Positions 6,703-9,687 of a stretch of DNA of 46,058 nt are shown here, piece after piece. Location of the stretch: contig JAJRWR010000037.1 of assembly GCA_024276695.1 (NCBI GenBank), forward strand, positions 1 to 46,058, written 5' to 3'. Made by a program: the position numbers and the translations under genes. The DNA comes from an archaeon. GTDB lineage: Archaea > Thermoproteota > Nitrososphaeria > Nitrososphaerales > Nitrosopumilaceae. Numbering within the stretch: the first letter of the stretch is position 1; each line of letters starts with the position of its first letter. The notes under the pieces are model-generated. The model was not told where the DNA came from. It worked only from the letters and a program-made list of their open reading frames with translations, and ran no database searches.

Positions 6703-7425
6703 ATGCCTGGATTAATTGGAATCGGAGTAGGTCCGGGAGATGTTGATCTATTAACAGTCAAAGCTGTAAATGCAATTCAGAATGCCGATATCATAATGTG
6801 TCCTGCTTCCAATGAAAATAGACCCAGTATTGCATTTTCAATAGTATCCCCAATAATTGATAAATCAAAAAATCAAGAAATTGTAAAACTAATCTTTCCA
6901 ATGACTAAAGACAAAGATGTTTTAGAAGCTACATGGAAAAAAAATGCCAAGATAATGGCAGAAACTGTTTTGACTGGAAAGAATGTTGTTTATCTTACAG
7001 TAGGTGATCCTTTCTTGTATAGTACTTGGATCTATATGCACAAAGACCTTAAAGAAAACTATCCTGACATGGACATAAGTGTAATTCCTGGAATTGTTTC
7101 CATGTTTACATTTGCATCTAAAGTTGGTGTGAGTATTGCTGAAGGTGCAGAAAAAGTTGCTATCATTCCATCATGCTATGATCTGTCAAGTGTGAAAGAG
7201 ATTGCAAAAAATTCCGAGTCAATGATATTTCTTAAAGATGGTAGGTACTTTGATAAAGTAATCAAAGTTCTTAAAGAATCTGGATTTCCTGATGATTCGA
7301 TTTTTGCAATTGGACAAGATCTTGGAACAGAAAATGAAATTATTAAAAAAATGACTTTGGGTGAAGTAAATGATTCATCTTTGACAACAAAATACTTTTC
7401 GATCTTGGTGGTAAAACGTGTCTGA
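6703..7425 (+). CDS. cbiL: Precorrin-2/cobalt-factor II C20-methyltransferase
   Basis: Tetrapyrrole methylase fold. The N-terminal motif IGVGPGDVDLLTVKA (residues 6-20) and the second motif VYLTVGDPFLYST (about residues 95-107) form the SAM and substrate pocket. The segment MCPASNENRPSIAFSI after the first helix is typical of CbiL/CobI rather than of CbiF or CbiH. It adds the C20 methyl group, the first ring methylation after cobalt insertion. It overlaps cbiF by 8 bp, indicating translational coupling. Confidence 0.9.
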   Translation: MPGLIGIGVGPGDVDLLTVKAVNAIQNADIIMCPASNENRPSIAFSIVSPIIDKSKNQEIVKLIFPMTKDKDVLEATWKKNAKIMAETVLTGKNVVYLTVGDPFLYSTWIYMHKDLKENYPDMDISVIPGIVSMFTFASKVGVSIAEGAEKVAIIPSCYDLSSVKEIAKNSESMIFLKDGRYFDKVIKVLKESGFPDDSIFAIGQDLGTENEIIKKMTLGEVNDSSLTTKYFSILVVKRV

Positions 7426-8188
7426 CGTATTTTTTGTTGGCTGTGGTCCGGGTGATCCTGATTTAATCACTGTCAAAGCTAAAAAACTAATTCAAAAAGC
7501 AGATATTATTGTATACTCTGGATCATTGATTCCCAAACCAATTTTAAAGCTATGTAAAAAAGGGAAACTACATGATGCTGCTAAATTAGTTAGAGAAGAA
7601 ATTTTTGATTTATTATACAAAAATGCAAAGAAAGACAAACTTGTTGTTAGATTGCATGATGGTGATCCTTCAATTTACGGTGCCATCAAAGAACAGATTG
7701 ATAATTTAGAGAAAAAAGGAATCAAGTCTATAGTCATACCTGGAGTTACTGCATTTTTAGCCTCAGCCGCTGCACTTGGAATGCAATTGACACTTCCTGG
7801 TGTTACTCAAACAATAATTGTTACAAGGGCTGAATCAAGAACCAAAGTTCCAAAACGTGAGAAAATTTCTGAGCTTGCAAAACATAAAGCTACGTTGATT
7901 TTTTATCTTAGTGTTCAACTAATTTCTAATTTAGTAACTGAGGCAATTGCAGGTGGATACAAAAAATCTACTCCTGTCGCAGTTGTATATAGAGCAAGTT
8001 GGAAAGATCAAAAAATAACTAAAGGAACACTTGGTGATATTGTAAAAAAAGTAAAGGATGAAAAAATCACAAGAACTGCCATTGTAATAATAAGTGATGT
8101 GATAGATCCTAAAACATATGAATACTCAAAACTATATGATAAAAAATTTACTCATGGCTATAGAAAAGCTAAGAAGATAAAAAATTAA
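7418..8188 (+). CDS. cbiF: Cobalt-precorrin-4 C11-methyltransferase
   Basis: Tetrapyrrole methylase that adds the C11 methyl group. GCGPGDPDLITVKA (residues 8-21), YSGSLIPK and RLHDGDPSIYGAI (about residues 77-89) are the CbiF/CobM hallmarks, as is ALGMQLTLPGVTQT in the middle. GTG start inside the end of cbiL (8 bp overlap). The gene ends in a lysine-rich tail and overlaps the convergent racemase-like gene by 20 bp. The C17 methylase CbiH, which acts one step earlier, is not in the window. Confidence 0.93.
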   Translation: MSDVFFVGCGPGDPDLITVKAKKLIQKADIIVYSGSLIPKPILKLCKKGKLHDAAKLVREEIFDLLYKNAKKDKLVVRLHDGDPSIYGAIKEQIDNLEKKGIKSIVIPGVTAFLASAAALGMQLTLPGVTQTIIVTRAESRTKVPKREKISELAKHKATLIFYLSVQLISNLVTEAIAGGYKKSTPVAVVYRASWKDQKITKGTLGDIVKKVKDEKITRTAIVIISDVIDPKTYEYSKLYDKKFTHGYRKAKKIKN

Positions 8189-8933
8189 CCTTATTTTTAA
8201 TACCTATTTTATTTAGTTTAGCTTGAAATATTTTTACATTTCCTGATGCATAAATTTTTAAATAATTTTTTTTATTTTGATTATTTTTAATTTTTAGAAA
8301 AATTTTTTCTGCAACAATGTTTGCAGGATCAACAAAATTGATTTTTGGATATTGTTTTTTTAACAATGATTTTAAAAATGGCAAATGTGTACTGGAAAGA
8401 GTGATTGTATCAATATTATTTTGAGATAATTTTTGATCGAGATTTTTTTTAATTATTTTCTGACAATATTTTTTATTTGAAATAAATTTTCCAGATTCTA
8501 CTAGTTCGACAAGATCTGATCCATTCATTTTAAAAACTTTAAAACTTTTTGGAAAGTTATTTTGTTTGATATATTGTGTTAAACCTTTATTGTTAATTGC
8601 ATTCTTTGTTGCTAAAATCCCAATTTGTTTTGTTTTAGATTTTTTTTTAGCTTCTTGCAATGGTGGCTTTACATCAAAAATTTTCTTTGTTGTCACATTC
8701 AACATTAGACTAGGTGTATTTGAGGCTACGACTATGATATCTGGAGAAAACTTTTCTTGTAATATTTTGATAGATTTTTGAATTATTCTAGATAATTGTG
8801 CCTGAGATTTTTTTCCATATGGATAATTTTGTTGGTCTGCAAAATAGATTATCTCTGACTTTGATATCTTTTGTATTGCCTTAATGATTGATAGTGAGCC
8901 CAGACCCGAATCAAAAACTACGATTTTAGCCAT
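8169..8933 (-). CDS. Glutamate/aspartate racemase-like protein lacking both catalytic cysteines
   Basis: Clear Asp/Glu racemase (MurI-type) fold: VFDSGLGSLSII at residues 6-17, YFADQQNYPYG at 30-40, VVASNTPS at 68-75 and LSSTHLPFL at 179-187. In glutamate racemase the last two motifs read VVACNT and LGCTH, and the two cysteines do the acid/base chemistry. Here they are Ser71 (TCA) and Ser181 (AGT). The aspartate-serine pair D8-S9 and His183 remain. Racemisation by the usual two-thiol mechanism is therefore unlikely. Thaumarchaeota also lack peptidoglycan, the usual reason for D-glutamate. The gene is rich in Lys/Asn and converges on cbiF. A binding or regulatory role, or a different reaction, is possible; no function is assigned. 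Confidence 0.85.
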   Translation of the reverse strand: MAKIVVFDSGLGSLSIIKAIQKISKSEIIYFADQQNYPYGKKSQAQLSRIIQKSIKILQEKFSPDIIVVASNTPSLMLNVTTKKIFDVKPPLQEAKKKSKTKQIGILATKNAINNKGLTQYIKQNNFPKSFKVFKMNGSDLVELVESGKFISNKKYCQKIIKKNLDQKLSQNNIDTITLSSTHLPFLKSLLKKQYPKINFVDPANIVAEKIFLKIKNNQNKKNYLKIYASGNVKIFQAKLNKIGIKNKVNFLSS

Positions 8934-8968
8934 AATTTTTCTTAAAGTTTGAGAGTAATGTTTGTTAG

Positions 8969-9029
8969 CTAAATTTAGTCCAAAGCTGATCTAAATTTAC
9001 ACCGTTGATTAAGACTAAATTTCTAAATT
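8969..9029 (+). promoter_or_regulatory. Four CTAAATT copies upstream of cdvB
   Basis: CTAAATT(T) occurs at 8969-8976, 8991-8998, 9015-9022 and 9023-9029 in the 103-bp gap before cdvB. The first copy is part of the 10-bp palindrome CTAAATTTAG. One copy may serve as TATA box; repeated copies could be binding sites of a cell-cycle regulator. In AT-rich DNA some repetition is expected by chance. Confidence 0.3.
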
Positions 9030-9036
9030 CTCCATC

Positions 9037-9687
9037 ATGCCAAACTTCGATAGTACTTGGGCTCGACAAGAGACCCAAAGTGTAACTGGCAAACTACGTG
9101 ATGCAGTAAAGCCTCAAGGTGCATTAAAACCACGGATTCAACAAGCAGTAAACAAACTACAGGTCCAAATCTCAAAAATGGATTCTATGTTAGGTAAACT
9201 GCACGAAAGAGATGCGCAACTCTTTCAGAGAGTCGTGACTGCAATGCAGCAACATGATACTAGCACAAGTAGAGTTTTGTCTAACGAATTAGCTGAAATT
9301 CGTAAAGTTACAAAGATGCTCGGCAACGCAAGAATGTCATTAGAACAAGTCCAGCTAAGACTGACAACTATTCATGATCTTGGTGATGCTATGATAGCAA
9401 TTGGACCAGCAATGTCTACAATGAAGGGATTGAAGTCATCGCTAGGAAGATTCATGCCAGAAGCTGATTCAGAATTGAACAGTATGACCCAGACACTTAA
9501 TGGACTTATGATGGATTCACTTGCAGGAGACTCGTTTAGTATGGAGTCTGATGTTTCAAGTGAAGAAACCGAAAAGATTCTTCAAGAAGCATCTGCAGTA
9601 GCTGAGCAACAGATAGGTGATAAATTCCCATCTGTACCATCTTCAACTGGACTTTCGTCACAATCCTCTACTTCTACCTTTGAGTAG
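9037..9687 (+). CDS. cdvB: CdvB family ESCRT-III-like cell-division protein
   Basis: Snf7/ESCRT-III homologue that polymerises at the division site in Thaumarchaeota and Sulfolobales. Residues about 10-130 form the basic helical hairpin core (KPRIQQAVNKLQVQISKMDSML...). Residues about 120-165 are rich in Met, Gly and Ser and resemble the autoinhibitory region. The tail is acidic (SSEETEKILQEASAVAEQQIGD), then serine-rich to the end. I see no winged-helix domain and no clear proline-rich MIM2 motif, so this looks like a short CdvB paralogue rather than the CdvA-binding CdvB of Sulfolobus. It is monocistronic and ends before a T-rich stretch (9709-9732). Confidence 0.88.
   Translation: MPNFDSTWARQETQSVTGKLRDAVKPQGALKPRIQQAVNKLQVQISKMDSMLGKLHERDAQLFQRVVTAMQQHDTSTSRVLSNELAEIRKVTKMLGNARMSLEQVQLRLTTIHDLGDAMIAIGPAMSTMKGLKSSLGRFMPEADSELNSMTQTLNGLMMDSLAGDSFSMESDVSSEETEKILQEASAVAEQQIGDKFPSVPSSTGLSSQSSTSTFE

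Follow-up and report, generated by a model that had tools for sequence, protein, structure and literature searches.

A MurI-type protein of ammonia-oxidising archaea with serine at both catalytic cysteine positions

Glutamate racemases of the MurI type (TIGR00067, K01776; structures 1zuw, 2gzm and 1b73) carry two catalytic cysteines, the first partnered by an Asp and the second by a His. Within the same superfamily, arylmalonate decarboxylase, which has a Gly/Cys pair, differs in both its catalytic pair and its reaction, with one cysteine kept. The E. coli L-Asp/Glu racemase (5ell, 5elm) and M. maripaludis MMP0739 also have a hydroxyl residue in place of a thiol, with Thr replacing only one of the two cysteines, and the E. 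coli enzyme still works, in one direction (PMC8142540). Changes of this kind have also been described in other proteins. Replacing Cys with Thr converts a two-base epimerase from a different family to a dehydratase (PMC8142540), and a two-thiol histidine racemase with a different fold loses most of its activity when Cys is mutated to Ser (PMC11602996).

A protein of ammonia-oxidising archaea has been described as a "typical bacterial" glutamate racemase that is prevalent in these organisms and virtually absent from the other Nitrososphaeria; its necessary catalytic residues were stated to be present, and a role in deep-sea D-glutamate turnover was built upon it (PMC12363236, mSystems 2025). 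The protein analysed here, P0001, belongs to the same family and has the same distribution. Unlike the protein as it was described, however, the sequences presented below contain neither catalytic cysteine. No experimental study of this protein was found in the open-licence literature.

The gene and its predicted fold

P0001 is encoded on the minus strand at 8169..8933 of the window, by which we mean the whole stretch of 46,058 nucleotides that was analysed. The open reading frame begins with an ATG at 8933 and ends with a stop at 8169, giving 254 aa plus stop. The original prediction had read two Cys-to-Ser changes directly from the DNA, and both are confirmed. The first motif is VVASNTPS, with S71 encoded by TCA (8721..8723, read as 8723-8721 on the minus strand), and the second is TLSSTHLPF, with S181 encoded by AGT (8391..8393, read as 8393-8391). 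In a phmmer alignment with Aquifex MurI (1b73), S71 lies opposite VVACNTAS and S181 opposite LGCTHYP; G180, which adjoins the second cysteine in MurI, is also Ser in P0001.

Both sequence and fold similarity place P0001 in the Asp/Glu racemase superfamily. Its top profile is TIGR00067, glutamate racemase (E 1.2e-33), at 116.6 bits against a curated cut-off of 146.65 bits, which among the Ser/Ser proteins is passed only by Nitrososphaeraceae-like members. The match to PF01177 is weaker (E 5.6e-6, 26.7 bits vs a cut-off of 31), while the sequence matches in the PDB are all described as glutamate racemase. A structure model built from 75 homologues (mean pLDDT 94.6, pTM 0.90) matches solved glutamate racemases over its whole length, including Bacillus MurI 2gzm (Z 30.3, 2.1 A over 248 residues), with further matches to aspartate and allantoin racemases. 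The match to the E. coli L-Asp/Glu racemase and MMP0739, which share the superfamily fold, is farther (Z about 13). We are therefore confident that P0001 is predicted to adopt the two-domain MurI fold.

Searches of the source genome with TIGR00067 and PF01177 found no second racemase-family gene, although PF01177 at the threshold used also misses the P0001 gene itself. Viral contigs encoded no relative, and PADLOC returned no match.

Conservation of the active site

The conservation of P0001 was assessed in 127 distinct full-length homologues from related genomes of ammonia-oxidising archaea, with 11 normal MurI sequences as an outgroup (nine from bacteria in a plasmid collection, one from a phage and one from a different archaeal family within the phylum). 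Positions 71 and 181 are each Ser in 127/127 archaeal homologues and Cys in 11/11 MurI, and because both serines are invariant across this set they are neither chance nor assembly error. The comparison with orthologues proposed in the original prediction thus gave a uniform answer, as no intact orthologue in ammonia-oxidising archaea keeps either cysteine. The codons for S71 are all TCN. Those for S181 are AGY in 126/127, one base away from a Cys codon, and Cys is never seen there.

The auxiliary acid/base residues D8 (8910..8912), D33, E146 (8496..8498) and H183 (8385..8387), all encoded on the minus strand, are found in 127/127 archaeal homologues and 11/11 MurI; D8 and H183 correspond to the Asp and His that partner the first and second catalytic cysteines in MurI, and E146 aligns with a conserved MurI Glu. 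D8-S9-G10 and H183 had been listed as kept from the single sequence, and all are present. D8, S9, G10, P38, Y39, G40, T73, E146, T182 and H183 are invariant among the 127, and P0001 shares D8/S9/G10, D33, the PYG motif, T73, E146, T182 and H183 with MurI. Apart from the two serines, there are differences from MurI at position 112, where Thr usually gives way to Ala or Val, and at position 13, where all archaeal homologues have Ser for the Gly of the DSGxGG motif. At just three of the invariant positions, those of S13, S71 and S181, do all 11 MurI agree on a different residue. No other cysteine is conserved among the 127 homologues, 12 of which contain no Cys at all, so the further check for a conserved cysteine in the pocket also came back negative.

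This invariance is found in a protein that otherwise changes quickly. Of its 254 positions, only 18 never vary, and these include 11 of the 13 listed for the MurI active site. The Fisher p for this is 4e-13, a generous value since the site list was drawn partly from MurI structures and partly from residues conserved in MurI. The protein evolves faster than every other local gene in the comparison, at a mean identity of 68% vs 83-96%, and its dN/dS is about 0.3 (median 0.29). Taken together, the fixed Ser/Ser pair, this dN/dS and the concentration of conservation in the active site of a fast-evolving protein give good support to selection on the pocket rather than drift or decay, as had been proposed from the single sequence.

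Ser/Ser proteins are also found in bacteria. Homologues in Phyllobacterium zundukense (33% identity) and Fusobacterium vincentii (40% identity over 205 residues) both have the motifs ASNAPS and LSSTHLPW, and the F. vincentii record carries a normal Cys/Cys MurI elsewhere in addition to its Ser/Ser paralogue (L228 7151-7933, L229). In a maximum-likelihood tree, 30 archaeal and 2 bacterial Ser/Ser proteins are separated from 13 Cys/Cys MurI by a branch with support of 100/99. The Ser/Ser proteins thus share serine at both catalytic positions and form one clade apart from Cys/Cys MurI, and the simplest reading of these sequences would be a single change away from Cys/Cys, in a tree that is unrooted and in which bacteria are thinly sampled, through plasmid and phage records.

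Distribution, host and gene neighbourhood

Archaeal amoA was present in 73 of 398 sampled genomes of the phylum, and the Ser/Ser gene or its remnant was found in 69/73 of these, the four without it being G237, G336, G340 and G359. None of the amoA-negative genomes in the sample contained the Ser/Ser form. Five other matches in the phylum proved to be something else: a true Cys/Cys MurI in G217, aspartate-racemase-like proteins with an Ala/Cys pair in G120 and G442, and unrelated proteins in G084 and G438. Archaeal aspartate-racemase-like sequences (L234, L235) have Ala at the first catalytic cysteine (AANTPH) and keep the second (GCTE). In a separate set of relatives, the two genomes of one family (f3) with the gene were amoA-positive, and the families of the same order that were tested and lack it were amoA-negative. 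Within the phylum, the phylogenetic tie of the Ser/Ser gene to ammonia oxidation is near-perfect, and this uncharacterised gene tracks amoA. Several genomes of the same genus carry broken copies, including the single-contig G022 and G327, which indicates that some of these organisms can do without the function. Even these copies retain the ASNT and LSSTH motifs. Broken or frameshifted copies were seen at L035, L198, L199, L200, L036 and L114, of which the last two may reflect sequencing error. The function of the gene is thus old and widespread, yet losable.

The original prediction had expected a host without peptidoglycan, which fits the absence of any Mur ligase (PF08245) in the source genome under a search that was positive in control genomes. 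Our distribution agrees with that published, whereas the published statement on catalytic residues (PMC12363236) is contradicted, as all full-length homologues here, among which A9A551 itself is not included, lack both thiols. Since both are replaced by Ser across the group, the label "glutamate racemase" is probably wrong for this protein. In the ocean, ammonia-oxidising archaea belong to the most abundant microbes, and if both thiols are missing group-wide, the D-glutamate turnover inferred in that study needs testing before it is used. The Ser/Ser homologues include L137, which is the likely N. maritimus SCM1 copy.

Two genes flank the P0001 gene, both named by eye. A putative CdvB/ESCRT-III-like paralogue without a Pfam match (9037..9687, plus strand) is its divergent neighbour across a 103 bp spacer (8934..9036) that probably holds both promoters. 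This divergent pair is kept in 182/210 loci, a count that includes overlapping and repeat loci, and its spacer has a median length of 105 bp. Outside the Nitrososphaeraceae-like family, hardly any locus lacks it. The convergent neighbour, a cbiF-like precorrin methyltransferase gene (7418..8188, plus strand), overlaps the 3' end of the P0001 gene by 20 bases. A role in cobalamin synthesis was rejected as weak because cbiF is convergent and its linkage breaks in L042, L192, L193 and L196, where the pairing with the CdvB-like gene stays. In the Nitrososphaeraceae-like genomes, a hyuA-like gene (hydantoinase/oxoprolinase, PF01968) directly follows the Ser/Ser gene in 4/6 cases, and a UppS-like gene adjoins it in 1/6. 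The hyuA-like gene encodes about 700 aa (L183 6349-8481; L032 2404-4515). HyuA was rejected as an obligate partner, since the gene was not found in the source genome nor in several relatives. These neighbours hint at a pathway that might involve a cyclic or amide compound derived from glutamate, although none of them gives a clear pathway.

Possible functions of the Ser/Ser pocket

The original prediction had raised a different reaction or a regulatory role through amino-acid binding, and either may apply. On balance, we slightly favour the view that P0001 is no ordinary two-thiol glutamate racemase but represents a distinct subfamily within the MurI-type Asp/Glu racemase superfamily, in which Ser/Ser became fixed long ago, and that it would carry out serine chemistry on a glutamate-like ligand. 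The pocket would still bind glutamate, a similar dicarboxylate or a glutamate-derived ligand, and the serines may be activated by the retained Asp and the His/Glu pair. The reaction would then be one suited to a hydroxyl, for example elimination, isomerisation or the nucleophilic opening of an amide or lactam, and not racemisation at the alpha-carbon. Such a change of chemistry has precedent in the epimerase that becomes a dehydratase through a single Cys-to-Thr swap (PMC8142540).

Alternatively, P0001 may have remained a glutamate racemase that is slow or works in one direction only, uses the serines as its bases and serves in the proposed uptake of D-glutamate (PMC12363236). This would accord with the MurI fold, with the retention of most substrate-contact residues and with the Nitrososphaeraceae-like members that pass the curated glutamate racemase cut-off. 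By analogy with the E. coli L-Asp/Glu racemase, a hydroxyl can serve as the base on one side (PMC8142540). In P0001, however, two thiols are replaced and not one, and the loss of most turnover in Cys-to-Ser mutants of a two-thiol racemase, albeit of another fold, speaks against serine as an adequate substitute (PMC11602996). The published statement of intact residues is also at odds with the sequences, L137 included, and the genome has no Mur ligase, which makes continued racemisation quite unlikely.

The invariant pocket also fits a sensor. P0001 could be a catalytically silent binder of glutamate (or of 2-oxoglutarate or another dicarboxylate) and act as the regulator of a partner, with nitrogen status or cell division as possible settings. 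A pocket that is invariant without its thiols would agree with such a role, as might the divergent CdvB-like gene, which stays in place in deep branches, including those in which the cobalamin genes have relocated. The retention of D8, D33, E146 and H183 in 127/127 archaeal homologues and in both bacterial proteins nevertheless goes beyond what ligand binding alone should require. The CdvB link is not universal either, given the hyuA-like (4/6) and UppS-like (1/6) neighbours in Nitrososphaeraceae-like genomes, and conserved neighbours may be simple synteny; we regard this possibility as unlikely, if worth keeping in mind. A relaxed relic, in which racemase function has been lost and the gene is drifting, could be read from the broken same-genus copies, including those in single-contig G022 and G327, and from the fast evolution relative to the other local genes. 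It is very improbable, as the gene is intact in most amoA-positive genomes with a dN/dS of about 0.3 and an unchanging active site; since S71, S181 and the partner residues never vary, it is already largely refuted.

Serine-based chemistry on a glutamate-like ligand is thus the mechanism that we prefer. If so, P0001 may belong to a new class of MurI-fold enzymes, in which a double-Ser site, an Asp and a His/Glu pair act on a glutamate-derived ligand. The reaction would belong to the core biology of ammonia-oxidising archaea and be common to a few bacteria with a normal racemase as well; we put this forward tentatively, as a possibility with somewhat less than even prospects. The protein also offers a clean natural experiment on what becomes of a two-base racemase pocket once both bases have changed. 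The ligands may differ across the Ser/Ser clade, since in the two bacterial proteins S9 and T73 are both replaced by Ala, with the Asp, Asp, Glu and His partners kept.
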